Below are positions 14,753-30,137 of a DNA stretch of 64,000 nucleotides, piece after piece. Each line of letters starts with the position of its first letter. The stretch's first letter is position 1. The translations under genes and the position numbers were made by a program. Source of the DNA: Pedobacter sp. KBW06 (GTDB lineage Bacteria > Bacteroidota > Bacteroidia > Sphingobacteriales > Sphingobacteriaceae); assembly GCF_003852525.1 (NCBI RefSeq), contig NZ_QAJL01000001.1, positions 2,406,536 to 2,470,535 on the forward strand, in the 5' to 3' direction. Under the pieces are notes generated by a model, which was given only the letters and a program-made list of their open reading frames with translations, did not search any database and had not been told where the DNA came from.

Positions 14753-14983
14753 ATGTCCCGAATTCTTACAAAATTTACCAAATTTTTCGGGGTTTTCCAC
14801 ATTTCAGGAAGAAAATCGACAAAATTACAATGCTTGCATAAGACCCATACCGAATACCGATTTCATATTTGGTATAGTAGCGACCAATTAAAGATATTAA
14901 AAACACAATAAATCAAGAATAATATTTGTATATTACAAAAAATATAAGAATAATATTTTTTTTCAATTATTTTTAACTGGCTA

Positions 14984-15014
14984 TTGGAAGTGTAGAAGCC
15001 AAAGCCTAAATTGG
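14984..15014 (+). promoter_or_regulatory. possible promoter of the ilv-leu operon
   Basis: TTG at 14984-14986 and TAAATTGG at 15007-15014 are 20 bp apart, one mismatch from TAnnTTTG. Transcription would begin near 15021, 25 nt before the leader peptide. Weak but well placed. Confidence 0.3.
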
Positions 15015-15045
15015 ATTTATAAAGCAACAACAAATAAAGAACAAA

Positions 15046-15129
15046 ATGAACCTTATTAGCACCGCCTTAATTATTGTCATTATTAATGTGATTCTTCTGC
15101 TGATTATTCAGAGGGATAAGGCGCTGTAA
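15046..15129 (+). CDS. ilvL: branched-chain amino acid leader peptide
   Basis: A 27-residue peptide of which 16 residues are Ile, Leu or Val (8 Ile, 6 Leu, 2 Val), with dense runs such as LIIVII and ILLLII. It is not a usual protein-coding product. It precedes the complete Ile-Val-Leu operon by 97 bp. Its last codons (AAG GCG CTG) form one strand of an antiterminator, and its stop codon sits where a ribosome would block that pairing. This is the arrangement of E. coli ilvL. A membrane microprotein would look similarly hydrophobic, but the paired hairpins favour an attenuation leader. Confidence 0.8.
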   Translation: MNLISTALIIVIINVILLLIIQRDKAL

Positions 15130-15184
15130 ATGAATATTTAATAAAAAAATATACGCAAGCGCCCCCCACAAGTGGCGCTTTTTT
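15118..15184 (+). promoter_or_regulatory. transcription attenuator (antiterminator and terminator)
   Basis: AAGCGCC (15157-15163) pairs with GGCGCTT (15174-15180), followed by a run of six T residues (15179-15184), making a terminator 42 bp before ilvE. The same AGCGCC can instead pair with GGCGCT at 15120-15125, at the end of the leader peptide gene. A ribosome stalled on Ile/Leu/Val codons leaves 15120-15125 free and permits read-through. A ribosome that reaches the stop codon at 15127 covers it and lets the terminator form. The two competing pairings are seen directly in the sequence. Confidence 0.82.
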
Positions 15185-15226
15185 AATGAACCAATAAAAA
15201 GAACAAAACATCAATCTACAACCAAA

Positions 15227-16117
15227 ATGAAATACCACAATTCAAATACAGTGTTATACTTAGACGGCAAGTTCCAGAAAGCCGCCAACACAACCGCCGA
15301 TATCTACGGGCAATCGCTCCATTATGGCTACGCTGTATTTGAAGGGATCAGGGCTTACCATACCCATAACGGAACCCGTGTATTTAAGATCAGAGAGCAT
15401 TTTGAAAGGTTAAAAAAATCTGCTGAACTCGTAAATATGCCTTTTCCATGGGACATCAACAACCTGATCAAACAAACCTATAAACTACTGGAATTAAACA
15501 ACTTAAAAGACGCATACATCCGCCCGTTGGTATATGCCGCACCAAATATGCAATTGGTTGCTGCTACAGATGTTTCGATCATGATCTGTGCCTGGGAATG
15601 GGGAGCTTACCTTGGAAATCAGCAATTAAAAGTTTGCATTTCCAGCTATGAGCGTCCAAATCCAAAATCTACACCTATAGAAGCTAAAGTGAGTGGTAAC
15701 TATGTGAATTCCATCCTGGCTACCACCGAAGCAAAACGCAAAGGATTTGATGAGGCCTTGTTGTTAGATATGAACGGCAACATCGCGGAAGCTCCCGGAG
15801 CAAATATTTTTATTGAAAAAAACGGAAGGCTATACACCCCTCCTCTTGGCAATATTCTGGCCGGAATCACCCGTGCTACCGTCATAGAATTATGCCGTAT
15901 ACTGGACATCGAACTGGTAGAAAAACACCTGACGGTAAAAGACCTGAAACATGCAGACAGCGCTTTCTTCTGTGGAACAGCTACAGAAATTGCAGGTATT
16001 GCTTCGGTTGACGAATATCAGTTCCCAATCCGTTGGAACGACAGTGTTGGTGCCACGATACAACGCACTTATAAATGTTTGGTTTTAGAAAAGCAAAATT
16101 ACGAAGTAATCATATAA
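15227..16117 (+). CDS. ilvE: branched-chain amino acid aminotransferase
   Basis: A 296-residue fold-type IV PLP enzyme that makes the last step to Ile, Val and Leu, using glutamate as amino donor. The PLP lysine is Lys154 in [12 protein letters not shown]. The conserved [15 protein letters not shown] block is at 30-44 and the GTATEIAGI phosphate-binding loop is near 255-263. It is the first structural gene after the attenuator, and ilvD follows after a single base. Length matches the family. Some members also act on aromatic amino acids, but the operon makes the branched-chain role clear. Confidence 0.96.
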
Positions 16118-16118
16118 T

Positions 16119-17816
16119 ATGTCACAATCACCAGAAATAAACCGCTACAGTAAAGTATTCACGCAGGACCCAACCCAGCCTGCAGCGCAAGCCATGCTAT
16201 ATGGAATTGGTCTGACCAAGGAAGATATGGACAAGGCACAGGTCGGTGTTGCCAGTATGGGATACGATGGAAATACCTGCAACATGCACCTCAATGATTT
16301 AGCAAAAATTGTTAAAGACGGGGTCTGGGATAACGGAATGGTCGGTTTAACCTTCAGCACCATCGGCGTAAGCGATGGCATGTCAAACGGAACAGATGGA
16401 ATGCGTTATTCGCTGGTTTCCAGAGATGTAATTGCAGATTCTATTGAGACAATTTGCGGTGGACAATATTACGATGGCGTAATTGCTTTACCCGGTTGTG
16501 ATAAAAATATGCCGGGTTCGATCATGGCAATGGGCCGCTTAAACCGCCCATCGATCATGGTATATGGTGGAAGTATCCACTCCGGAAAATATAAAGGAAA
16601 ATCATTAAATATCGTATCTGCATTTGAAGCCCTTGGCGAGAAACTGGCAGGTACTTTAGATGAAGAAGATTATCAGGGCATTATTCGCAACACCTGTCCT
16701 GGAGCCGGTGCCTGTGGTGGAATGTATACCGCAAATACCATGGCTTCAGCAATCGAAGCATTGGGCATGAGTTTGCCATACAGTTCTTCTTATCCTGCAT
16801 TGAGCGAGGAAAAGAGAAAAGAATGTTTAGATGCAGGTAAAGCCATCCGTGTTTTATTGGAAAGAAACATCCTGCCTTCAGACATCATGACCGAAAAAGC
16901 ATTCCACAATGCGATTGTAACGGTAATGGTTTTAGGTGGTTCTACCAATGCGGTATTGCACTTAATTGCCATGGCAAAATCAGTAGGACTAAGCTTAAAA
17001 TTAGCAGATTTCCAAGCCGTTAGTGATAACACTCCGGTATTGGCAGATTTGAAACCAAGCGGACAATACCTGATGGAAGATGTTCATGAAATCGGTGGTG
17101 TTCCTGCAGTATTAAAATACCTGTTGAAAGTAGGTTTAATTCATGGCGACTGCTTAACAGTAACCGGAAAAACGCTGGCTGAAAATGTAGCGGATGCTGC
17201 TGATCTGGATTTCGATCAACAAAAAGTAATCCTTCCGGTAACCAACCCGGTAAAAGCAACGGGTCACTTACAAATGTTATATGGCAATATCGCCGAAAAA
17301 GGCTCAGTAGCCAAAATCAGTGGTAAAGAAGGAGAAAGATTTGAAGGTCCGGCAAGGGTGTTCGAAGGAGAAAAATCATTGATCGCCGGAATCCAGAGCG
17401 GAAAGGTGAAAAAAGGTGACGTAGTGGTGATCAGACAGGTAGGTCCTAAAGGAGCACCGGGAATGCCGGAAATGCTAAAACCAACTTCGGCCATTATTGG
17501 TGCAGGATTGGGAAAATCGGTAGCCTTGATTACGGACGGACGTTTCTCCGGAGGTACACATGGTTTCGTAGTAGGACACATCACTCCGGAAGCATGGGAC
17601 GGTGGAAATATTGCTTTTGTACATGACAACGATACGATCATCATTGATGCGGTAAACAACACTTTACACCTGGACATTACCGAAGAGGAAATGGAAAAAC
17701 GTAAAGCCGTTTGGAAACAGTTGCCACCACCCGTCAAAGGCGGCGTCCTTTACAAGTACCTGAAACAGGTAAGCGATGCCAGTGAGGGCTGCGTTACCGA
17801 TGCCTACACTCACTAA
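16119..17816 (+). CDS. ilvD: dihydroxy-acid dehydratase
   Basis: A 565-residue iron-sulfur enzyme that dehydrates 2,3-dihydroxy-isovalerate and 2,3-dihydroxy-3-methylvalerate to the corresponding 2-keto acids. Cluster cysteines are visible at Cys54 (GNTCNMHL), Cys127 ([10 protein letters not shown]) and Cys199 ([12 protein letters not shown]). The C-terminal [15 protein letters not shown] motif is present. It begins one base after ilvE, so translation is probably coupled. Full length, cytoplasmic, no anomalies. Confidence 0.97.
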
Positions 17817-17849
17817 TTAACCGAAACCCCTATACCTAAAAATAAAACA

Positions 17850-19589
17850 ATGAACACTGCACAAGAGGAAGCAACAACCTTAACGGAACCCAGGAAAACA
17901 GTAAATGTTTCCGGTTCTGTAGCTTTATTGGAAGGATTAATAGCTGAAGGCACGGATACCATTTTTGGTTATCCTGGAGGTGCCATCATGCCTATTTACG
18001 ACGCGATATACGATTATAAAGACCAGTTAAAACATATTTTAGTACGCCATGAACAAGGCGGCACACATGCCGGACAAGGCTATGCACGTACTTCCGGAAA
18101 AGTCGGCGTCGTATTCGCTACGAGTGGTCCGGGAGCCACCAACCTGGTAACAGGTTTGGCCGATGCACAGATCGACAGTACGCCTATGGTTTGCATCACC
18201 GGACAGGTATATGCACACCTTTTAGGAACAGATGCTTTCCAGGAAACGGATGTAATTAACATTACGACTCCGGTAACGAAATGGAATTACCAGATCACTG
18301 ATGCCACGGAAATCCCAAGTGTATTGGCGAAAGCTTTTTACATCGCCCGCAGCGGCAGACCAGGCCCGGTATTGATCGACATCACCAAAAATGCACAGTT
18401 GCAGATGTTTGATTATGAAGGTTACACACCTTGTGATCATGTTCGTAGCTACCGCCCGAGACCAAATATCCGTAAAGAATATATCGAACAGGCTGCTGCG
18501 CTGATCAATTCTGCAAAGAAACCTTTCATCCTTTTCGGACAAGGTGTTTCTTTAGGAAATGCAGAGCAGGAATTTAAAGCTTTTGTAGAAAAAACAGGAA
18601 TTCCGGCAGCATGGACGATTATGGGTGCAGGTGCAATTCCTACAGATCATCCTTTAAATGTAGGGATGTTAGGGATGCATGGTAACTATGGTCCAAACGT
18701 GCAAACAAATGCATGTGATGTACTCATTGCAATAGGAATGCGCTTCGACGACCGTGTAACGGGACGTTTAGATAAATATGCCAAACAAGCCAAAGTAATC
18801 CACCTGGACATCGATCCTGCAGAGATCGATAAAAACGTAAAGGCGGAAGTTCCGGTATGGGGCGACTGTAAACAAACCCTTCCTCTTTTGACTGCTTTAG
18901 TGGATCAGAAAGAACATAAAGAATGGTTGGCAGAGTTCAGGGCTTATGATAAAACAGAGTTGGAAACCGTCATCCATAAGGAGTTGAACCCGGAAAGTGG
19001 CGAATTGACCATGGGTGAAGTGATCAACCAGCTAAATGTACTAACCAAAGGTGAAGCGATCATCGTAACCGATGTGGGTCAGCACCAAATGGTGGCTTGT
19101 CGTTATGCGAAGTTTAACCACACCAGAAGTAACATCACGAGTGGCGGCTTAGGCACAATGGGCTTCGGCTTACCTGCAGCGATCGGTGCTAAATTTGGCG
19201 CGCCGGACCGGACCGTAGTTGCCGTAATTGGTGATGGTGGTTTCCAGATGACGCTTCAGGAATTGGGTACGATCATGCAAAGTGGAATTGATGTGAAGAT
19301 CATGATCCTGAACAACAGGTTCCTGGGTATGGTTCGCCAATGGCAGCAATTGTTCCATGAGAAACGCTACTCTTTCGTAGACATTACAAGTCCTGATTTC
19401 GTGAAACTTGCCGATTCGTATTATATCGCGGGTAAAAAGGTTTCTGAACGTGAAGATCTGGTGAGCTCTTTAGAAGAAATGTTAAACCACAAAGGTTCCT
19501 TCCTTTTAGAAGTAATGGTAGCCAAAGAACACAATGTATTCCCAATGGTTCCGCAAGGAAGCAGTGTAAGTGAAATCAGACTTAAATAA
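17850..19589 (+). CDS. ilvB: acetolactate synthase, large catalytic subunit
   Basis: A 579-residue thiamine-diphosphate enzyme that condenses two pyruvates, or pyruvate with 2-ketobutyrate, in the first shared step of Val/Leu and Ile synthesis. The catalytic glutamate is Glu68 in LVRHEQGG. The cofactor motif starts at GDGGFQM (about 455) and ends with the Asn-Asn pair about 28 residues later. The N-terminal GYPGGAIMP and the FAD-binding middle domain are intact. The regulatory subunit gene follows 10 bp later. The biosynthetic rather than catabolic (AlsS) role is clear from context. Confidence 0.96.
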   Translation: MNTAQEEATTLTEPRKTVNVSGSVALLEGLIAEGTDTIFGYPGGAIMPIYDAIYDYKDQLKHILVRHEQGGTHAGQGYARTSGKVGVVFATSGPGATNLVTGLADAQIDSTPMVCITGQVYAHLLGTDAFQETDVINITTPVTKWNYQITDATEIPSVLAKAFYIARSGRPGPVLIDITKNAQLQMFDYEGYTPCDHVRSYRPRPNIRKEYIEQAAALINSAKKPFILFGQGVSLGNAEQEFKAFVEKTGIPAAWTIMGAGAIPTDHPLNVGMLGMHGNYGPNVQTNACDVLIAIGMRFDDRVTGRLDKYAKQAKVIHLDIDPAEIDKNVKAEVPVWGDCKQTLPLLTALVDQKEHKEWLAEFRAYDKTELETVIHKELNPESGELTMGEVINQLNVLTKGEAIIVTDVGQHQMVACRYAKFNHTRSNITSGGLGTMGFGLPAAIGAKFGAPDRTVVAVIGDGGFQMTLQELGTIMQSGIDVKIMILNNRFLGMVRQWQQLFHEKRYSFVDITSPDFVKLADSYYIAGKKVSEREDLVSSLEEMLNHKGSFLLEVMVAKEHNVFPMVPQGSSVSEIRLK

Positions 19590-19599
19590 TTAGCAGATC

Positions 19600-20211
19600 A
19601 TGAGCAGTTCTCAAGAAATAAACGAAAAACAGGAATTTACGATCACGGTATACACGGAAAATCAAATCGGATTACTGAACCGTATTGCCATTATTTTTTC
19701 AAGAAGAAAAATCAATATAGATACTTTAAATACTTCTCCTTCGGAGATTGAGCACATTCACCGTTTCAATATCGTGATTCACGAAACTGAAGAAGTGGTG
19801 CGTAAACTGGCCCGTCAGATTGAAAAGCAGGTAGAGGTATTGAAAGTATATTTCAATACCAATGAAGACATCATCTGGCAGGAAATGGCCCTTTACAAAG
19901 TGCCTACCGACACCATCGCTGAGCTGGTATCTGTAGAACGTTTGTTGCGCGAAAATGGCGCAAGGGCGGTAGTGATCCGTAAAGATTACACCGTATTTGA
20001 AACGACCGGTCACCGCGAAGAAACCGACAAACTGATCGAAGTGCTGCAACCTTACGGACTGATCGAATTTGTCAGAAGTGCAAGGGTAGCGATCATCAAA
20101 GACAGTGAAGGCTTTAACCGCAAACTAAGAGAGTTTGAGCGCAGGGAACCAGGACAGGAAGTGATTGAAAACGAATTCCTTGATAAAGAGAAAAACGTAT
20201 TCAGCATGTAA
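19600..20211 (+). CDS. ilvN: acetolactate synthase, small regulatory subunit
   Basis: A 203-residue regulatory partner of IlvB. The N-terminal ACT domain (about 12-88) begins FTITVYTENQIGLLNRIAII and is where valine would bind for feedback inhibition. A second C-terminal domain (about 95-180) follows, as in the long IlvH/IlvN type. It follows ilvB by 10 bp. The 80-bp gap after it to ilvC holds no obvious hairpin. The symbol ilvH would be equally valid. Confidence 0.93.
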   Translation: MSSSQEINEKQEFTITVYTENQIGLLNRIAIIFSRRKINIDTLNTSPSEIEHIHRFNIVIHETEEVVRKLARQIEKQVEVLKVYFNTNEDIIWQEMALYKVPTDTIAELVSVERLLRENGARAVVIRKDYTVFETTGHREETDKLIEVLQPYGLIEFVRSARVAIIKDSEGFNRKLREFERREPGQEVIENEFLDKEKNVFSM

Positions 20212-20291
20212 TTTTCAAGGGCCGGATGTGCTCAGCAGAACAAATAAATATTAAACAAAAAATTAGAACCTATAAATAACCATTAAAAACG

Positions 20292-21773
20292 ATGTCAAAC
20301 TATTTTAACACACTACCTCTTAGAGAAAAATTAAACCAATTGGGTGTATGCGATTTCATGGACAGCTCTGAATTTCTAGACGGCGTAAATGCCCTGAAAG
20401 GAAAAAAGCTGGTGATCATCGGTTGCGGTGCACAAGGATTGAACCAGGGTTTAAATTTAAGAGATAGCGGTTTAGATGTTTCTTATACTTTACGTAAAGA
20501 AGCGATTGAAGGCAAAAGAGATTCCTGGAAAAATGCGACAGAGAATAACTTTACCGTAGGTACTTATGAAGAGTTGGTCCCTACAGCTGATGTATTGATT
20601 AACCTTACTCCTGATAAACAACACACTTCGGTAGTTAATGCAGTAATGCCTTTAATGAAACAAGGTGCTACCTTATCTTACTCACATGGTTTCAACATTG
20701 TGGAAGAAGGCATGCAGGTGCGTAAAGACATTACCGTAATTATGGTGGCACCAAAATGCCCTGGTAGTGAAGTAAGAGCAGAATATGTACGCGGTTTTGG
20801 TGTACCTACCCTAATTGCTGTTCACCCGGAGAATGATCCGGAAGGAAAAGGTTTAGATCAGGCTAAAGCCTATTGCGTAGGAACCGGCGGTCATAAAGCA
20901 GGTGTTTTAAAATCATCTTTTGTGGCAGAAGTAAAATCAGATTTGATGGGTGAGCAAACGATCCTTTGCGGATTATTGCAAACAGGCTCTATCCTTTCAT
21001 TTGATAAAATGATTGAAAAAGGAATTGATGCAGGTTACGCTTCCAAATTGGTTCAGTATGGTGTAGAGGTGATCACTGAAGCCTTAAAACAAGGTGGTAT
21101 CACTGCGATGATGGACAGATTGAGCAATGTAGCTAAGATCAAAGCATTTGAGGTTTCTGAAGAATTGAAAACGATCATGCGTCCATTATTCCAAAAGCAT
21201 CAGGACGACATCATGAGCGGCGAGTTTAGCCGTGTAATGATGGAAGACTGGGCTGCCGGTGATAAAAACTTATTGGCATGGCGCGCCGCAACCGGCGAAA
21301 CTGCTTTCGAAAAAACTCCTGCCGGAAATGTTAAAATTGGCGAACAGGAATATTTTGACAATGCATTGCTAATGGTTGCTTTTGTAAGAGCAGGTGTGGA
21401 ACTGGCTTTCGAAACAATGGTAGAAGCTGGAATTAAACCAGAATCTGCTTACTACGAGTCATTACACGAAACTCCACTAATTGCAAACACCATTGCCCGT
21501 AAAAAATTATTCGAAATGAACAGGGTGATTTCAGATACTGCAGAATATGGTTGTTACTTATTTGACCATGCTTGTAAACCACTTCTGGCAGATTTCATGA
21601 CTAAAGTTGATACTGACCTGATCGGTAAAAACTTCAACGAAGGTAAAGATGGCGCTGTGGACAACAGAGCATTGATCTCCGTAAATGAAGTGATCCGTTC
21701 ACATCAGGTGGAAGTTGTAGGTGCTGAATTAAGAAAGGCAATGACTGCAATGAAATCTATTAAAACTGCCTAA
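20292..21773 (+). CDS. ilvC: ketol-acid reductoisomerase, class II (long form)
   Basis: A 493-residue enzyme that isomerises and reduces acetolactate or acetohydroxybutyrate with NADPH and magnesium. The nucleotide-binding motif [11 protein letters not shown] is at about 43-53. Length near 490 and two C-terminal knotted domains are characteristic of the class II form found in enterobacteria and plants; class I enzymes have about 330 residues. It follows ilvN in the operon. A hairpin lies between it and leuC. Confidence 0.96.
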
Positions 21774-21785
21774 TCATAAAATTAG

Positions 21786-21816
21786 AAGGACCCAGGTATT
21801 AAAGGCCTGAGTCCTT
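21786..21816 (+). terminator. intra-operon hairpin between ilvC and leuC
   Basis: AAGGAC with CCAGG pairs with CCTG and GTCCTT. The following T-run is short (TTTA), so it is at most a partial terminator or an RNA-processing or stability element that could set leu expression lower than ilv. Confidence 0.4.
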
Positions 21817-21832
21817 TACAAAGCAATAAAAA

Positions 21833-23248
21833 ATGTCAAAAACATTAGTAGAAAAAATTTGGGATGCCCATGTGGTAAAGAGTGAAGTCGGATTTCCGGA
21901 TATTTTATATATCGATACACACTTGATACACGAGGTGACTTCCCCTCAGGCTTTCGATGGTCTACGCAAAAGAGGCTTGCCTGTTTTCCGTCCGCAGCAA
22001 ACTGTGGCTACGGCAGATCATAATGTGCCTACCTTAAACCAGCTGCAACCCATTAAAGAAGAACTTTCCCGTTATCAGGTAGACATGTTAACCAAAAACT
22101 GTGCAGAATTTGGCATTGAGCTTTATGGTTTAGGTCATCCTTTCCAGGGAATTGTACACGTAATTGGTCCGGAACTGGGCATTACCCTACCAGGAAAAAC
22201 CATGGTTTGCGGAGATAGCCATACTTCTACACACGGTGCCTTTGGTGCCATTGCCTTCGGGATCGGTACTTCTCAGGTGGAACAGGTTTTTGCCACACAA
22301 TGTTTGTTGCAGCAGAAACCGAAAACCATGAAAATTGAGGTGAACGGTGCCTTAGGACAAGGTGTTACGGCTAAAGACATTATTCTATACATCATCTCTA
22401 AAATATCTGCTGCCGGTGGTACAGGTTATTTTATCGAATATGCAGGTTCTACCATTGAGGCTTTAAGTATGGAAGCGAGAATGACGATCTGTAATATGAG
22501 CATTGAAATGGGTGCCAGAGGCGGTTTGATTGCTCCTGACCAAATCACTTTCGATTACATTAAAGGAAGAGAATTTGCACCTGCAGGCGAAGAGTGGGAC
22601 AAATCACTGGCCTACTGGAAAACATTATACAGCGATGCGGATGCTCAGTTTGACAGCGTTTTAACCTTTGATGCCGCAGACATCAGCCCAATGATCACTT
22701 ACGGAACAAATCCGGGAATGGGAATGGGAATCTCAGAACACATTCCTTCTACTGCGAGTCAGGTTTCTTCGGAGCAGGCATCTTTCCAGAAAGCTTTGGA
22801 TTATATGGGCATTGAACAGGATACAGAATTGGTAGGTAAACCTATTGACTATGTATTTATCGGCAGTTGCACCAATTCCAGAATGGAAGATTTACGCGAA
22901 GTGGCGGAATTTGTAAAGGGTCGTCAGAAAGCAGAAAACGTGACCGTTTGGATCGTACCGGGTTCTAAACAAATCGAGCAGCAAGCAATTGCTGAAGGAT
23001 TGGATAAAATCTTTGAAGCGGCAGGATTCCAGTTGCGCGAGCCTGGATGTAGTGCTTGTTTAGGCATGAATGAGGATAAAATCCCTGCAGGAAAATACTG
23101 TGTATCTACTTCCAACAGAAATTTTGAAGGAAGACAAGGACCAGATTCCCGCACATTTTTAGCCAGTCCGCTTACCGCAGCTGCTGCTGCCATTACCGGA
23201 AGGGTTACGGATGTAAGAACTTTATTGAACGAACCTGCACACGCTTAA
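21833..23248 (+). CDS. leuC: 3-isopropylmalate dehydratase, large subunit
   Basis: A 471-residue aconitase-family subunit that, with LeuD, converts 2- to 3-isopropylmalate. The 4Fe-4S ligands are visible as the Cys in [12 protein letters not shown] (about 346) and the pair in GCSACLGMN (about 407-410). The N-terminal [12 protein letters not shown] block is present. Full length and followed 12 bp later by leuD. The operon context distinguishes it from homoaconitase and from citraconate-type relatives. Confidence 0.96.
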
Positions 23249-23260
23249 ATAAGAATCATT

Positions 23261-23845
23261 ATGAAAAAATTTGAAAAGCTTACTTCGGCGATTGTGCCTT
23301 TAAATATAGAGAATATAGATACCGACCAGATCATTCCGGCCAGGTTTCTAAAGGCGACTACGCGTGAAGGTTTCGGTGAGAACTTATTCCGTGATTGGCG
23401 TTATAACGGTGACAATACCTTAAAAACGGATTTCGTGTTGAACAACCCGGCTTTTAAAGGCAGGATTTTGGTGGCAGGAAAGAACTTTGGTTGCGGTAGT
23501 AGTCGCGAGCATGCAGCCTGGGCCATTCAGGATGCAGGTTTTGATGTAGTGATCAGCAGTTTCTTTGCCGACATCTTTAAAGGAAATGCATTAAACAATG
23601 GTTTATTACCAATCCAGGTAAGCGATGAGTTCTTAGCAGAGATCTTCAGCACAGTAGGTCAGGATAGTACTGCCCAGCTTGATGTTGATTTGGAAGCACA
23701 AACGGTAACCAATGTAGTAACCGGATCTAAAACTGATTTCGAAATCAATCCCTATAAAAAATCCTGCTTAATCAATGGTTATGATGACATCGATTTCATC
23801 TTAAACCAAAAGCAATTGGTCGTAGAATTTGAACAAAACAGATAA
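23261..23845 (+). CDS. leuD: 3-isopropylmalate dehydratase, small subunit
   Basis: A 194-residue swivel-domain partner of LeuC. Diagnostic blocks are [14 protein letters not shown] near residue 20 and [16 protein letters not shown] near 70-85. Length is normal. Its stop codon shares one base (TAATG) with the start of the downstream ABC gene, so translation of that ABC protein is coupled to leuD. Confidence 0.96.
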
Positions 23846-25314
23846 TGTCACAACCCGTCGTCCATATCGCCCACTTTAATCTAAAGTACCATCAAAAACC
23901 GGTGTTACAGGATTTGAGCTGGGTAATAAACCGCAATGACAACTGGTTGTTGTGTGGTTCTAGTGGAACCGGAAAAACATCATTGGCCAAAGCTATCGCC
24001 GGCTTAATTCCCGTTCATGAGGGAGAGGTTAACATCAACTTCCACCCGGAAAGTACCTTACCGGCAATGGTCCATTATGTGGCCAACTGGTATCAGTTTA
24101 AAGACCTTGAAGGCGCTTCAAACTTCTATTACCAGCAACGTTATAACAGTTCGGTTACCGTAACCACAGCTACTGTAATCGCTGAACTGGAAGTTTATGG
24201 TAAAGAATACGGACTTCCATCTGAAGAAATTGAGCACATTCTGGAAGCCTTAGGCTTTACTGCTTTAAAAAACTCTCCGCTGATCCAGTTATCCAGCGGA
24301 GAACATAAAAAATTGCAATTGGTAAAGGCCTTATGGTTAAAACCGCAATTGTTAATTCTGGACCAACCCTACAATGGATTGGATAGCCTTTCCCGTAAAA
24401 ACTTAAATATTTTGCTGGAAGAAATCGCGGCAGCCGGAACACAGTTGATCTTAATCAGCAATGAAACGGAACTTCCTGCCGTAATCAATCGCTTTGCCGA
24501 GATCCGGAAAGGCGCATTGAAGGAGGTTTCCTTTGAAGAACGCGCCTTAGATCTTGTAGAAGAAATCACTAAACCTGTTCCTTCGTTTTTAAATAATGTC
24601 TCTGTTTCCTCCACTGCTGATCATGTCATCAAAATGATCGATGTGAACATCAGCTACAGCGGGAAACAGGTATTAAAGAACATCAACTGGGAAGTAAATT
24701 CAGGAGAAAAATGGCTTCTGCAAGGTTACAACGGCTCCGGAAAATCAACTTTATTGAGTTTAATTGCAGGTGACCATCCACAGGCTTATTCCAATAACTT
24801 TTACCTGTTCGGCAATAAAAGAGGAACAGGCGAGAGCATCTGGGAGATCAAAGAGCGCATTGGTTTGATATCTCCTGAATTGCATTGGTATTTTGACGCT
24901 TCTGCTACGGTATGGCAAAGCATCGCTTCCGGATTCTACGACAGCTCAGGCTTGTTCTGCAATCCAGGTGCAACCAAACATAAACAGGTAGACGAACTGA
25001 TCAGTTATTTCGGATTAACGGAATATAAAAACAGGTTGATGAATGAGCTTCCCTTAGGCAAGCAAAGGTTAACCTTACTGGCCCGGACCATTATCAAAAA
25101 TCCGGAGATCTTAATACTTGATGAGCCTTGTCAGGGTTTAGATCAACAACAAACACAACATTTTAACAAGCTGGTGGATGAGCTATGCAAAAATGGAACA
25201 ACATTAATCTACGTTGGCCATTTTGAATCCCAGTTACCGAGCTGTTTAGAGAAAAGAATTTTATTAGAAAACGGAGAAGTAAAATCCGTAGAACCGATGT
25301 TACAAACTATCTAG
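23845..25314 (+). CDS. tandem ABC ATPase (ModF-like), embedded in the leu operon
   Basis: A 489-residue protein with two ATP-binding cassettes and no membrane segment. Cassette 1 (about 5-235): Walker A GSSGTGKT (38-45), signature LSSGE (149-153), Walker B LLILDQ with Gln174 where the catalytic Glu is expected, and Asn206 in place of the switch His. Cassette 2 (about 262-485): Walker A GYNGSGKS (294-301), signature PLGKQ (403-407), catalytic Glu427 and His459 present. So one site looks inactive and one competent. Architecture resembles ModF (PhrA). It overlaps leuD by one base and precedes leuB by 4 bp. No permease is nearby, so a transport role is doubtful; the function is unknown. Confidence 0.85.
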   Translation: MSQPVVHIAHFNLKYHQKPVLQDLSWVINRNDNWLLCGSSGTGKTSLAKAIAGLIPVHEGEVNINFHPESTLPAMVHYVANWYQFKDLEGASNFYYQQRYNSSVTVTTATVIAELEVYGKEYGLPSEEIEHILEALGFTALKNSPLIQLSSGEHKKLQLVKALWLKPQLLILDQPYNGLDSLSRKNLNILLEEIAAAGTQLILISNETELPAVINRFAEIRKGALKEVSFEERALDLVEEITKPVPSFLNNVSVSSTADHVIKMIDVNISYSGKQVLKNINWEVNSGEKWLLQGYNGSGKSTLLSLIAGDHPQAYSNNFYLFGNKRGTGESIWEIKERIGLISPELHWYFDASATVWQSIASGFYDSSGLFCNPGATKHKQVDELISYFGLTEYKNRLMNELPLGKQRLTLLARTIIKNPEILILDEPCQGLDQQQTQHFNKLVDELCKNGTTLIYVGHFESQLPSCLEKRILLENGEVKSVEPMLQTI

Positions 25315-25318
25315 AACG

Positions 25319-26407
25319 ATGAAGAAAAATATATTAGTTATTCCCGGCGACGGAATCGGACCTGAAGTGACCACTTGGGGTAAAGCAGTATTGGAAGAAA
25401 TTGCCAAAGGTTTCGGACATGATTTCAGTTATGACGAAGCACTGATGGGCCATGCAGCAATTGAAGCAACAGGCAATCCACTACCCGATGAAACGCTGGA
25501 AAAAGCTAAAAAAAGCGATGCCATTCTTTTTGGTGCGGTAGGTCATGCTAAGTATGACAATGATCCTTCTTTAAAAGTACGCCCTGAGCAGGGATTACTT
25601 AAAATCCGCAAGGAATTAGGTTTGTATGCCAACCTGCGCCCTATTTTACTGTTTGACGAATTGTTAAATGCTTCGAGCATTAAACCCAATATATTAAAGG
25701 GTACAGACATCCTGTTTTTCAGAGAGCTGACAGGTGATGTTTATTTCGGCGAGAAAACCCGCTCTGAAGATAACAATACCGCTTCTGATCTGATGATCTA
25801 CCACCGTTATGAGGTAGAAAGAATTGCCCGTAAAGCATTCGAAGCAGCCATGCAACGTAGAAAAAGATTGTGTTCTGTAGATAAAGCAAACGTATTGGAA
25901 AGCTCCAGATTATGGAGAGAAACCGTACAGCAGATTGCAAAGGAATATCCGGAAGTACAAACCGATCATATGTTCATTGACAACGCAGCAATGCAGTTGA
26001 TCAAAGATCCGAAACAGTTTGACGTGGTACTAACGGCCAATCTTTTTGGAGATATCCTTACGGATGAAGCTTCACAAATTGCAGGATCGATGGGGATGCT
26101 GGCTTCCGCTTCTGTAGGCGAAAGCACTGGTTTCTTTGAACCAATCCATGGCTCGGCACATGACATCACCGGAAAGAACCTGGCTAACCCACTGGCTTCT
26201 ATCCTATCGGTATCCCTGATGCTGGAAATTGGCTTCGGACTGAAAGATGAAGCAAAAGTGATCATCGATGCCGTAGATCAGGTGCTGAAAGAAGGTTTCA
26301 GAACAAACGACATTGCTGACGATACGACCAACCCATATAAAGTTCTTGGAACCAAAGAAATGGGACAATTGGTCTTGAAATATATTACACAGAAAACTAA
26401 TCCCTAA
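25319..26407 (+). CDS. leuB: 3-isopropylmalate dehydrogenase
   Basis: A 362-residue NAD-dependent oxidative decarboxylase that makes 2-ketoisocaproate. The opening ILVIPGDGIGPEV, the substrate-binding ELTGDVYFGEK block near 140 and the NLFGDILTDEASQIAGSMGML metal/substrate segment near 240 are all present, as is the NAD-binding EPIHGSAHDITGK. Length is usual. It starts 4 bp after the ABC gene and precedes leuA by 12 bp. Confidence 0.97.
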   Translation: MKKNILVIPGDGIGPEVTTWGKAVLEEIAKGFGHDFSYDEALMGHAAIEATGNPLPDETLEKAKKSDAILFGAVGHAKYDNDPSLKVRPEQGLLKIRKELGLYANLRPILLFDELLNASSIKPNILKGTDILFFRELTGDVYFGEKTRSEDNNTASDLMIYHRYEVERIARKAFEAAMQRRKRLCSVDKANVLESSRLWRETVQQIAKEYPEVQTDHMFIDNAAMQLIKDPKQFDVVLTANLFGDILTDEASQIAGSMGMLASASVGESTGFFEPIHGSAHDITGKNLANPLASILSVSLMLEIGFGLKDEAKVIIDAVDQVLKEGFRTNDIADDTTNPYKVLGTKEMGQLVLKYITQKTNP

Positions 26408-26419
26408 ACTCCAAGAATT

Positions 26420-27928
26420 ATGTTACACGATCCTAATAGAGTCTATGTGTTTGACACCACCTTACGTGATGGTGAGCAAGTACCGGGTTGCCAGTTGGCC
26501 ACTCCTGAAAAAATTGAAATTGCAAAAGCACTGGAAGCACTTGGAGTGGATGTAATTGAAGCTGGCTTTCCTATTTCCAGCCCTGGTGATTTTCAAAGTG
26601 TAGTAGAACTGTCTAAAGCAGTACGCGAACCGATTATCTGTGCCTTAACCCGCGCCAACAGAAAAGATATCGATTCGGCTGTTGCCGCTTTACAATATGC
26701 AAAAAGACCAAGAATCCATACCGGAATTGGTTCTTCAGACATGCACATCAAATATAAATTCAACAGCACCCGGGAAGACATTCTTCAAAGAGCAGTTGAA
26801 GCGGTAAAATATGCGAAACAGTTTGTAGAGGACATTGAGTTTTTCGCAGAAGATGCAGGGCGCGCAGACAATGTATTCTTAGCGCAAATGATCGAAGCAG
26901 TAATTGCTGCCGGAGCAACGGTAGTAAACATCCCGGATACGAATGGTTATTGCCTTCCGGATCAGTATGGCTCGAAGATCCTTTATTTGAAAGAAAACGT
27001 TAAAAATATAGATCAGGCGATTATCTCTGTACACTGCCATAATGATTTAGGCCTGGCGACGGCAAATAGCCTTGCAGGATTGATCAACGGTGCCCGTCAG
27101 GTAGAATGTACCATCAATGGAATCGGAGAGCGTGCAGGGAACACAGCGCTGGAAGAAGTGACCATGGTTTTAAAGACACACCATGCACTGAACTTAAAAA
27201 CGAACATCAACAGCAAGCATTTCACAGAGATCAGTTCTATGGTGAGCCGCATGATGCACATGCCGGTACAACCGAACAAAGCGATTATCGGTCAGAATGC
27301 TTTTGCACATAGTTCCGGGATCCATCAGGACGGGTTTTTGAAACATAGAGAAAACTATGAGATCATCAATCCGGAAGATGTAGGTTTAAATTCAGCAGAC
27401 ATCATTTTGACAGCACGTAGTGGCCGTCATGCCTTAAAGCATCATTTAGAGCGCTTAGGTTATGAGATCGACCGTCTAAACCTGGATCAGGTATATGAGC
27501 GCTTCCTGATCATGGCTGATGAGAAGAAAACGATCGGTGACGATGATATTCTTTATCTAATGAGCGACACGGAAGAAGGCGCCGTAAAAAACGGATACAA
27601 ACTGAACTTGTTACAAGTGCTTTGTGGTGATCCGCTGAGCCCTACGGCGAGCATCAGACTGGAATATGATGGTGTGGAGCAAGAAGCAATGGCTACCGGA
27701 AACGGACCTGTAAATGCAACGATCAAAGCGATTCAGACGATTGTCGGAAAAGACATCACACTGAAGGAATTTACCATTCAGGCCATGCATGGCGGAAGTG
27801 ATGATGTAAGTAAAGTAAACATGAAGGTTGCCTACGAAGGAAAATCTTATGTAGGCTATGGTTTTAGTACAGATATCGTAAAGGCCTCGGCCAATGCCTA
27901 TCTGGATGCAATGAATAAATTTATATAA
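26420..27928 (+). CDS. leuA: 2-isopropylmalate synthase
   Basis: A 502-residue enzyme that condenses acetyl-CoA with 2-ketoisovalerate, the first committed step to leucine. The TIM-barrel signature [11 protein letters not shown] is at about 13-23, and the metal-binding [12 protein letters not shown] at about 201-212. The C-terminal part (about 380-502) is the LeuA regulatory domain that binds leucine for feedback inhibition. The EQVPG sequence and operon place favour isopropylmalate synthase over citramalate synthase. It is followed by ilvA after one base. Confidence 0.95.
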
Positions 27929-27929
27929 G

Positions 27930-29180
27930 ATGAGTGTAGAAAAAGAAGTTGTACTGGATTTTCTGGCGGCAGCAGAACGATTGAAAGGTACGGTAAAACG
28001 TACCCCTTTGGAATATAATGCAGGACTTTCTAAAACATACCAGGCGAATATTTATCTGAAAAGAGAAGATTTGCAATTGGTACGCTCCTATAAATTAAGA
28101 GGTGCTTACAACATGATCAGCACGCTGGAGCCAGAACAAATGGCACAGGGTGTGGTCTGTGCAAGTGCAGGAAATCATGCACAGGGTGTCGCACACTCCT
28201 GTAAAAAACTGAACATCAAAGGGGTTATTTTTATGCCGGAAATTACCCCGAGGCAAAAGGTGAAACAAACAGAAATGTTTGGTGGTGAACATATTGAAAT
28301 CATCCTTGTAGGTGATACTTTTGACGATTGCTTAAAAGAAGCATTGGAATATACCGCAGCCAATGGAATGACTTTCATCCCTCCTTTCGATAATACGAAG
28401 GTGATCGAAGGTCAGGGAACCGTTGGTGTGGAAATCTTTGAAGACCTTCCGGAACTGGACATCGTGATCATGCCTATCGGTGGTGGCGGACTTGCTTCAG
28501 GTGTAGGTAGTTATCTGAGAAATCTAAAACCTGGGATTCAACTGATCGGTGTGGAACCTGAAGGCGCACCTTCTATGAAACATGCCTTAAATACCGGTGC
28601 TCCGGTTTTACTGGGCGACATTGATCGTTTTGTAGATGGTGCCGCAGTGAAAAGAGTAGGAAACCTGACTTTTGAATATTGCAGGGAACTCCTGAATCAA
28701 ATGTTACTGATCCCTGAAGGAAAAATCTGCACAACGATCCTTAAATTATACAATGAGGATGCTATTGTGGTAGAGCCAGCAGGTGCATTGGCCGTAGCTT
28801 CCTTAGATCAGATCAAAACTCAGATCATAGGTAAAACAGTCGTATGTATCGTAAGTGGGGGTAACAATGACATTGAAAGGATGCAGGAGATCAAAGAGAA
28901 ATCCTTACTCTTTGAAGGATTAAAGCATTATTTCATCGTTCGCTTTCCGCAGAGACCAGGAGCATTGAAACTATTTGTAAATAATGTGCTGGGCCCTCAT
29001 GATGACATCACCCGTTTTGAATTTATCAAAAAAACCAATCGGGAAAATGGTCCTGCACTGGTAGGTATCGAGCTTGCAAAACCAACGGATTACGATGCAT
29101 TGCTGCAAAGAATGAAGGAATTTAAATTTGAGATCATTGAATTGAACAATGATCAGACACTTTTCGAATATCTGGTATAA
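27930..29180 (+). CDS. ilvA: threonine ammonia-lyase
   Basis: A 416-residue fold-type II PLP enzyme that deaminates threonine to 2-ketobutyrate, the start of isoleucine synthesis. The PLP lysine is Lys55 in RSYKLRGAYN, and the phosphate-binding loop GGGGLASG is near 186. Residues about 325-416 form a single ACT-like regulatory domain, so it is the short biosynthetic type rather than the 514-residue E. coli form. It is the last gene of the operon, 1 bp after leuA, with a strong terminator after it. A decayed second copy of its 3' end lies at 30138-30283. Confidence 0.95.
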   Translation: MSVEKEVVLDFLAAAERLKGTVKRTPLEYNAGLSKTYQANIYLKREDLQLVRSYKLRGAYNMISTLEPEQMAQGVVCASAGNHAQGVAHSCKKLNIKGVIFMPEITPRQKVKQTEMFGGEHIEIILVGDTFDDCLKEALEYTAANGMTFIPPFDNTKVIEGQGTVGVEIFEDLPELDIVIMPIGGGGLASGVGSYLRNLKPGIQLIGVEPEGAPSMKHALNTGAPVLLGDIDRFVDGAAVKRVGNLTFEYCRELLNQMLLIPEGKICTTILKLYNEDAIVVEPAGALAVASLDQIKTQIIGKTVVCIVSGGNNDIERMQEIKEKSLLFEGLKHYFIVRFPQRPGALKLFVNNVLGPHDDITRFEFIKKTNRENGPALVGIELAKPTDYDALLQRMKEFKFEIIELNNDQTLFEYLV

Positions 29181-29202
29181 CAACAATAGATATAATCACC
29201 CG

Positions 29203-29240
29203 AAGGCTGTATCATAGATCTATGATACAGCCTTTTTTTT
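29203..29240 (+). terminator. terminator of the ilv-leu operon
   Basis: A near-perfect 32-bp palindrome (16-bp arms, AAGGCTGTATCATAGA and its complement) followed by eight T residues in total. It would stop transcription of the 14-kb operon. The convergent beta-barrel gene ends at 29258. Confidence 0.9.
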
Positions 29241-29257
29241 ATAATCCTTAACTCTGA

Positions 29258-29920
29258 TTAGAAAGAATAACCTAATCCAACAGAAAGCACTCTGTTTTTA
29301 GCTTTTCCTTCACCACCAGCGTTGATCACATTGCTTAATCCAAGGCCATATCCTGCGTGGATATTAAAGCCATTATTTAACTGATAACCGGTTAATAGAT
29401 TAATACCAAAATCGCCGCGTTTGAATGCTTTGTCATCGCCATATTCAATATCTTCCTTCACTTCTACTGAATTAGAACCAGACATTGCTTTAACTTTAAC
29501 CTTTCCGGCTATACCAATTGCATAATAAGGACCAGCTCCAACAAAGAACTTACCACTACCTGATTGAAAGTTAGCTACGATATTTACCGGAATTTCCAAA
29601 TAATGCGGGTTTAGTGTTGCTTCTGCCTTACCTGAACCTCCTTCACCGAACTCAGAAAAATCACCTGTATCTTTCGTGCCTTTTCCAATGTACAAAAGAC
29701 CTGGCTGCACAGAGAACATTTCACTTACCGGGATATCGACAGTACCGCCAAAATAAAATGAAGTATTTAATTTGCCTGTCTCGTTAACTCCGGAACCGGA
29801 GAATGACATATTCGAGAATGATGCGCCAGCTTTAACCCCAAATTTAATAGGACTTGTTTGTGCCGAAGCAGTTAAACCCAAACCGGTTAAGATTGTTAAT
29901 GATAGTAATAATTTTTTCAC
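29258..29920 (-). CDS. outer membrane beta-barrel protein (porin family)
   Basis: A 220-residue protein with a clean signal peptide (1-20, ending TASAQ). The mature domain opens with FGVKAGASFSNM and ends in a typical barrel strand with terminal Phe (VLSVGLGYSF). It matches the PorT-like outer-membrane beta-barrel family abundant in this phylum. The role is unknown and the transcription unit is single. An inverted repeat CGTTAAT-N9-ATTAACG lies 20-42 bp upstream of the start and may be an operator. Confidence 0.8.
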   Translation of the reverse strand: MKKLLLSLTILTGLGLTASAQTSPIKFGVKAGASFSNMSFSGSGVNETGKLNTSFYFGGTVDIPVSEMFSVQPGLLYIGKGTKDTGDFSEFGEGGSGKAEATLNPHYLEIPVNIVANFQSGSGKFFVGAGPYYAIGIAGKVKVKAMSGSNSVEVKEDIEYGDDKAFKRGDFGINLLTGYQLNNGFNIHAGYGLGLSNVINAGGEGKAKNRVLSVGLGYSF

Positions 29921-29939
29921 GCTTTTTTAAAAATTTATT

Positions 29940-29962
29940 CGTTAATATTCTATTGATTAACG
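29940..29962. promoter_or_regulatory. inverted repeat upstream of the beta-barrel gene, possible operator
   Basis: CGTTAAT (29940-29946) and ATTAACG (29956-29962) form a 7-bp dyad with a 9-bp spacer, so the half-sites are 16 bp apart. It lies 20 bp upstream of the start codon at 29920 on the minus strand, a suitable place for a dimeric repressor or activator. Confidence 0.35.
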
Positions 29963-30137
29963 ATAAGACGTCAAAAAAAAACGATAGTTACAATCAATTT
30001 GCATTTATAAGCGAAATCAGGATATTATTTCTGGCACTAATCTGCTGGTTAACTACTTTCATCTCAAAAACATGTAATATTCTATCCCTAATTGCGCGTT
30101 AAGAAGAGAAATTCAGGAACAACACGTTTAATTAACC

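Follow-up and report, generated by a model that had tools for sequence, protein, structure and literature searches.

A predicted ribosome-mediated attenuator upstream of the ilv-leu operon of Pedobacter, and related leaders in Bacteroidota

The DNA just upstream of ilvE in the window (the whole 64-kb stretch of Pedobacter DNA analysed here) very probably specifies a ribosome-mediated transcription attenuator of the trp/ilv kind, which would let the availability of charged Leu, Ile and Val tRNAs decide how much transcription continues into the ilv-leu operon. The leader ORF, its exclusive RNA pairings, their conservation and co-variation, the placement of the codons and the promoter are direct observations from the sequence and from comparison between genomes.

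Leader gene, exclusive pairings and predicted switching

The leader peptide gene, read from the sequence and kept in the genus, is a 27-codon ORF at 15046-15129 (window positions; features are on the + strand unless stated otherwise). Its product, MNLISTALIIVIINVILLLIIQRDKAL, has 16 Ile, Leu or Val (I/L/V) residues among its 27, confirming the gene that an earlier note, made from the letters alone, had described. The same note had proposed that AGCGCC pairs in two mutually exclusive ways, and this is also what we find. AGCGCC lies inside strand 3, AAGCGCC at 15157-15163, which on the basis of folding and co-variation is common to an antiterminator and a terminator. Its alternative partners are strand 2, the antiterminator 5' arm GGCGCT, which lies within the last codons of the leader exactly where the note had put it (15120-15125), and strand 4, GGCGCTT (15174-15180), which together with a T-run to 15184 forms the terminator 3' arm (15174-15184). 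The predicted terminator (15157-15184) consists of strand 3, a 10-nt loop, strand 4 and the T-run; because a simple terminator scan allows loops of at most 8 nt, it missed this structure. The bare stems are nearly equal in energy (3:4, -9.9 kcal/mol; 2:3, -9.3 kcal/mol). The 2:3 form gains from an AU hairpin predicted by folding within the antiterminator loop (15133-15153) and from an outer GGG:CCC extension, which bring it to -14.6 kcal/mol; the isolated terminator has -10.6 kcal/mol. The 155-nt leader folds better than its dinucleotide shuffles (z = -2.46; 2/200 shuffles as good). Across the 64-kb window, a pipeline for leaders followed by terminators made two calls on the opposite strand and two on the + strand, namely the studied site and a spurious one at the C-terminus of ATP synthase epsilon.

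We propose that transcription would begin near 15019 and that a ribosome would start the leader at 15046. With charged Leu, Ile and Val tRNAs in ample supply, the ribosome would translate to the end of the leader and cover strand 2 (15120-15125), upon which strand 3 would pair with strand 4 and RNA polymerase would stop at about 15184. When these charged tRNAs are scarce, the ribosome would stall on Ile, Leu or Val codons, most effectively on Leu codons 17-19, and the free strand 2 would pair with strand 3 ahead of the synthesis of strand 4; the terminator would not form and the ilv-leu operon would be transcribed. Translation of the leader ORF, stalling, the efficiency of termination and the control of all downstream genes are what we infer from the arrangement.

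To model the ribosome, we folded only the RNA downstream of its edge, set 12 nt past the first base of the A-site codon. In the window, the A-site on the stop codon gives a P(3:4) of 0.95 and a P(2:3) of 0, and the A-site on Leu codons 17-19 (CTT CTG CTG, 15094-15102) gives a P(2:3) of 0.79-0.83 and a P(3:4) of 0.03-0.08; the outcome is mixed for a stall on codons 8-13 or 20-21 (P(3:4) 0.35-0.59). Leu enrichment in the leaders of the genus is position-specific, and codons 17-19 are the best-placed control codons of the window leader. Before strand 4 is made, an A-site nine codons ahead of the stop gives P(2:3) > 0.5 in 94/95 Pedobacter genomes, and an A-site at the stop gives P(2:3) < 0.2 in 94/94 evaluated (locus L032 is unscored at the stop codon). 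Once strand 4 is included at equilibrium, some I/L/V stall gives P(3:4) < 0.5 in only 20/95 genomes (19/95 for the A-site nine codons ahead of the stop); therefore, the switch in most genomes must rely on the order of synthesis, i.e. on kinetics.

The folding without a ribosome bears on another reading, namely that the leader senses translation in general (whether it is on or off, or ribosome release at the stop) and not the supply of Leu, Ile and Val. A ribosome at the leader end abolishes 2:3, so any translation would matter, and at equilibrium the complete leader without a ribosome prefers the terminator (P(3:4) of 0.94 for the window, > 0.5 in 94/95 genomes, median 0.95), though before strand 4 is made 2:3 is favoured (P(2:3) 0.77 in the window, > 0.5 in 87/95), so that the classic state in which an untranslated leader is off would hold only at equilibrium. 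General sensing leaves unexplained, however, a stalling zone in which I/L/V account for 73-88% of codons -8 to -5 counted from strand 2 and which shifts from Leu-rich to Ile/Val-rich largely with operon content (see below), and we consider it highly improbable. Sensing of charged Leu, Ile and Val tRNAs is the reading that we retain.

Two further structures may contribute to the switch. Strand 1, GCACCGCCTTA at 15059-15069, is a possible protector partner of strand 2: the pairing 15059-15069 : 15116-15126 is present in the minimum-energy fold of the window leader, where only 1% of shuffles equal it. It outdoes 95% of shuffles in just 21/95 Pedobacter genomes; the protector pairing is visible in the window leader, yet it is not general across Pedobacter. 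A local hairpin spanning the Leu codons (15090-15117) outdoes 95% of shuffles in 45/95 genomes and, as a candidate pause hairpin, may pause RNA polymerase.

Promoter, operon and conservation in Pedobacter

Upstream of the leader lies a promoter of the Bacteroidota type, with a -33 element TTG (14984-14986) and, at a spacing of 20 nt, a TAnnTT[TG]G box that forms the -7 element (TAAATTGG, 15007-15014), predicting a transcription start at about 15019. The box corresponds to the TAnnTTTG promoter consensus of Bacteroidota (PMC9723704), is present in 89/95 Pedobacter ilvE upstream regions and is preceded by TTG at exactly the 20-nt spacing in 89/89; a sigma-70 promoter scan gave no useful + strand call close to the leader. 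Separately, we observed an inverted repeat, CCAA-N8-TTGG (14999-15014), that overlaps the -7 box and is a possible operator; it occurs in 61/95 Pedobacter upstream regions and, among the spacings of 6-10 tried, with a spacing of 8 alone.

Because T-boxes and riboswitches likewise combine a terminator with an alternative pairing, we considered that a tRNA-binding or small-molecule riboswitch (e.g. a T-box) governs the terminator and that the ORF is incidental. A search of the window with Rfam 15 at gathering score returned tRNA alone, with no T-box, leader or other cis-regulatory family, and the ORF fills most of the interval from promoter to strand 2; we consider a riboswitch extremely unlikely. 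In a permissive search of 14900-15300, the matches to Phe_leader (22.4 bits, cut-off 55), RsaJ and STnc100 were far below cut-off and were taken as chance or a resemblance in layout.

Downstream of the attenuator that we propose instead, ilvE starts at 15227, 42 bases beyond the T-run, and opens a series of eleven co-directional genes, ilvE, ilvD, ilvB, ilvN, ilvC, leuC, leuD, an ABC ATPase gene, leuB, leuA and ilvA (15227-29180), in which ilvE to leuB were named via NCBIfam and leuA and ilvA were assigned by eye from ORFs. The series is followed by a terminator with a 15 bp stem and a T-run (29202-29235), which is the sole terminator-like call on the + strand within 15100-30000 by a scan blind to the 10-nt loop of the leader. 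The earlier suggestion that the whole operon is controlled from the leader fits this map, there being no + strand terminator-like call before 29202. The ABC ATPase gene (23845-25311, between leuD and leuB) has ModF, below cut-off, as its best NCBIfam match, and a homologue sits likewise in the operon of 4/4 other Pedobacter genomes inspected. The window genome is 8.14 Mb in size, and among named loci its IlvE is best matched by that of Pedobacter steynii (100% identity; the window's own or very near records were possibly excluded).

Lack of conservation of the peptide and the stems in relatives had been set beforehand as the first half of a refuting condition for the attenuator. IlvE was found in 95/99 sampled Pedobacter genomes, the window's own counted (the other four are genomes of 80-84% completeness). 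We called a leader when an ATG ORF of 10-65 codons with at least six and at least 30% I/L/V residues was followed by a stem (score 9.5) and a T-run. Leader ORF and terminator were called in 93/95 ilvE upstream regions, compared with 0/950 dinucleotide shuffles and 3/95 reverse strands; in the remaining two, L032 and L037, both elements are present by eye and were missed solely on the composition threshold. With both elements present in 95/95 Pedobacter genomes, two of them by eye, this half of the condition did not refute the attenuator. The gap from stop codon to stem is 17-29 nt in the 93 called leaders. The peptides fall into several unlike subfamilies of 24-49 aa that have mainly their I/L/V runs in common, among them one of 27 aa (..VIINVILLLIIQ..KAL) and others of about 40 aa (..VILIIIILLLSKQPGSL), about 33 aa (..LLLNVLLYKQCKGSL) and about 45 aa (..VVLLPVIILNLLLLNILLGKKTGSF). 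At the DNA level, the string GTCATT occurs in 78/95 Pedobacter leaders and GTCATTATT in 43/95.

The I/L/V codons keep a fixed distance from strand 2. In the 95 Pedobacter leaders, the I/L/V fraction is 0.88, 0.81, 0.88, 0.73 and 0.46 at codons -8 to -4 from strand 2 and 0.01, 0.01 and 0.00 at codons -3 to -1 (L032 alone, 1/95, sits two codons off in this profile); across codons 5-10 upstream of strand 2 it is 73-89%. This edge falls where a ribosome would be expected to start covering strand 2 once the codon occupies its A-site. Part of the edge may be a composition effect, strand 2 being G+C-rich and Ile and Val codons A+T-rich, but such an effect does not readily explain the three codons preceding strand 2.

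Strands 2, 3 and 4 also vary together. Among the 44 Pedobacter leaders in which strand 3 is GCGCC, GGCGC is present in strand 2 of 42 and in strand 4 of all 44. Among the 51 in which it is GCGTC, strand 4 contains GACGC 48 times and GGCGC three times; strand 2 contains GACGC 16 times, GGCGC (with a G-U pair) three times and neither in 32 leaders, these last using other pairing registers, often with an internal mismatch. Two leaders (L066 and L070) have GGCGC/GCGCC/GGCGC in all three strands, although 39/43 of their peptide group have GCGTC. As an alignment-free test, we ranked the pairing of each leader end with its own strand 3 against that with foreign ones, where chance gives 0.5; the mean rank was 0.32 for the 95 Pedobacter leaders, 0.19 for 67 flavobacterial modules and 0.15 for 44 modules of the named loci L193-L227. 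The genomes compared are related, and the trials behind both the co-variation counts and the ranks are not independent, which overstates significance. Two other approaches were dropped: group-average cross-pairing between peptide classes separated them poorly because the strand 3 cores are alike, and per-column pair counting was set aside because a MAFFT alignment of the 95 leaders leaves strand 2 out of register between classes by eye. The co-variation of the three strands and the fit of strand 2 to its own strand 3 support the earlier proposal of ilvL-like attenuation logic in a Bacteroidota genome.

The same data weigh on the idea that the product of the ORF functions as a small membrane peptide and that the terminator independently and constitutively restrains the operon. 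The ORF is conserved, and its product is strongly hydrophobic and could cross a membrane once. The peptides before this same gene nevertheless differ in length and sequence across subfamilies, the end of their I/L/V runs keeps a constant distance to an RNA strand, their residue preference largely tracks operon content, and strand 2 within the gene co-varies with strand 3. We therefore regard a membrane peptide as quite unlikely and continue with ribosome-mediated attenuation.

Leaders beyond the genus and serial modules

Elsewhere in the family, conservation is patchy. IlvE was matched at cut-off in 23/61 genomes of the family sample, four of them Pedobacter, and among the 19 non-Pedobacter loci (L101-L119) a convincing call just before ilvE was obtained in L102, L111 and L113 only; calls in L101, L103, L105 and L114 look spurious. 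In L117, L118 and L119, 3/4 loci of another genus in the family, an Ile-rich leader (e.g. MKNLSTIITVIIIIVVIIHT) with a strong terminator is found at about -1490 to -1330, some 1.4 kb ahead of the gene for a divergent type of IlvE. Across the phylum, IlvD was found in 108/148 genomes, and the best 29 loci besides the window's gave 15 calls at looser thresholds, of which two are Pedobacter and one (L126) is doubtful; the loci L148 and L149 come from another class. Looser thresholds gave a call in 66/80 named loci, many of which are Pedobacter.

For a flavobacterial sample, we used IlvD as the query because IlvE matched only 6/120 genomes at the cut-off used; family f4 was taken as Flavobacteriaceae on the basis that the IlvE of one member is 85% identical to that of Aequorivita. 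The sample comprises 104 of the 109 IlvD-matching genomes, with G306 (contig ends) and G314 and G362 (contig start) left out, together with G242 and G286, which were counted as L143 and L144 in the phylum set. At thresholds of 35% I/L/V and a stem score of 10, at least one module was called upstream of ilvD in 53/104 loci, two in 14 of these 53 and none in 51, compared with 1/312 shuffles and 5/104 reverse strands. The I/L/V fraction at codons -5 to -1 is 0.82, 0.52, 0.16, 0.08 and 0.07 in 67 flavobacterial modules, fewer residues being counted nearest strand 2, and 0.80, 0.73, 0.26, 0.10 and 0.18 in 44 modules of the named loci.

The residues used differ between the groups. Leu makes up 50% of the I/L/V residues in the 95 Pedobacter leaders versus 12% in the 67 flavobacterial ones, which are Ile/Val-rich. 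Leu genes are in the operon of the window and of 4/4 other Pedobacter genomes inspected, and a co-directional leu gene is absent from 14/14 flavobacterial operons within the stretch read. Two further relatives, L359 and L360, were inspected, and in L359 a leuC lies some 8 kb downstream. We conclude that the regulatory residue largely, but not strictly, tracks the operon product. An exception is L360 (genome G278, with its leader in L136), where the leader MQLRGLNNVLLLTIILVVLVIIIPVTN has seven Leu and the stretch read has no leu gene. We looked for a Leu-rich leader before leuA in L343 and did not find one, and calls for His, Trp, Phe, Tyr and Thr leaders before hisG and two chorismate-binding genes of the window genome gave none. 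At the hisG locus of that genome (L230), a short ORF 285 to 223 bases upstream, MNQILNHHLHLHHRLSAMYM, has five His and by eye a hairpin inside it, with no terminator called; it is a possible His attenuator.

In Flavobacteriales, modules of leader and terminator also occur in series, which is the most novel part of the overall pattern. Three modules in a row are present, for example, in L204 (Aequorivita), L207 (Flavobacterium limnosediminis), L214 (Brumimicrobium) and L216 (Xanthomarina). The serial modules are Ile-rich (e.g. ..NIIIISIIIRSFE), and later copies are near-repeats of each other. Automatic calling in the 35 named loci L193-L227 gave two modules in ten, three in four, one in 12 and none in nine, which is an undercount, since L197, L199 and L208 have three modules versus two by automatic call; the module of L126 and a second, distant module of L200 are spurious automatic calls. 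In L197, L199, L204, L207, L208, L213, L214 and L216, two to three modules lie at about -480 to -95 upstream of ilvE. The next leader starts at most 32 nt after the previous terminator in 27/32 adjacent pairs, a gap that leaves hardly room for a promoter. No promoter motif was found between adjacent modules in any pair, by a test that is insensitive, as a TAnnTTTG box lies within 90 nt before the first leader in just 21/79 loci. An RNA polymerase passing such a series would need to escape every terminator successively.

Relation to known systems and implications

In E. coli and Salmonella, ilvL (of ilvGMEDA) and leuL are leaders rich in the end products of their operons, with exclusive pairings and a terminator before the first gene. 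The window leader resembles them in its end-product codons, in its overlapping, exclusive pairings and in a terminator before the first gene; it differs in that the gene order is another, the leu genes are joined to the operon, there is one antiterminator and the peptide is unrelated by eye. The Salmonella leu leader has CUA codons (PMC1183508), and likewise CTA and CTC are commoner in the 95 Pedobacter leaders than in ten genes of the window operon (CTA 0.21 vs 0.07, CTC 0.11 vs 0.02), as are GTC (0.39 vs 0.06) and ATT (0.87 vs 0.39), a comparison of the leaders of 95 genomes with the genes of one, into which genome differences enter. Unlike in E. coli and Salmonella, the window leader belongs to a phylum, the Bacteroidota, described as being without Shine-Dalgarno sequences (PMC9723704).

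Eight ilv loci with leaders of this type were compared with Rfam, and none reached the gathering threshold of any family, so annotation of the phylum probably misses many such leaders. We found no description of this Pedobacter leader in the literature searched; a survey by Lopatovskaya et al. (2010), said to be broad, may cover the phylum. Among the seven papers returned by a search on transcription-translation coupling in Bacteroidota, none has it as its subject by title. For Flavobacterium psychrophilum, of the same phylum, leader-peptide attenuation of amino-acid biosynthesis operons was proposed from transcriptomes (PMC9723704); the main text of that study names no ilv, and its section on leaders is without co-variation or codon-placement analysis. 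The Bacteroid-trp motif of Bacteroidetes (RF01692), for which a table in PMC2864571 gives both RNA status and cis-regulation as likely, is a trp element by name, unlike the window leader, and is not matched in the window. For Bacteroides, PMC7366714 mentions short ORFs that resemble leader peptides, and in 2010 PMC2965389 had just Proteobacteria and Actinobacteria to name as phyla with leader-peptide systems, to which it added Firmicutes. The Corynebacterium ilvBNC leader, as described in PMC11857589 and PMC10272879, has the same layout of a branched-chain leader ORF and an attenuator, in Actinobacteria and before another gene order. For the serial modules, the only comparable leader-peptide attenuators in the literature searched are those of Salmonella mgtCBR, where two leader ORFs with attenuators in series are reported to sense ATP and proline (PMC3641672); these two sense different signals, whereas the later flavobacterial copies are near-repeats with the same residues, and the window has a single module. 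Other kinds of tandem arrangement are double T-boxes (PMC9413887) and a second terminator before rimP (PMC2965389).

The predicted Pedobacter attenuator is well supported by the sequence comparisons; it would be ordinary in principle and lies in an under-described phylum. It would put textbook attenuation into a phylum reported to be without Shine-Dalgarno sequences, and the spacing of its codons, acting as a ruler, would show the footprint of a ribosome from sequence alone. Attenuation of this type needs the coupling of transcription and translation, and the leaders are natural variants for testing such coupling in Bacteroidota. We are evenly divided on a wider proposal, that leader-peptide attenuation is a main, phylum-wide control of branched-chain operons in Bacteroidota, with codons tuned to operon content, and that in Flavobacteriales two to three serial attenuators per transcript, each with its own ribosome, multiply their read-through probabilities into a sharper response to Ile/Val shortage. 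If true, phylum-wide attenuation would imply tight transcription-translation coupling in a phylum without Shine-Dalgarno initiation, and the flavobacterial series, in which a single sensor is repeated, would act as a natural amplifier. In Pedobacter, the leader would be an E. coli-like switch in a distant phylum in which such switches are little catalogued, predicted to be turned on when branched-chain amino acids are scarce.
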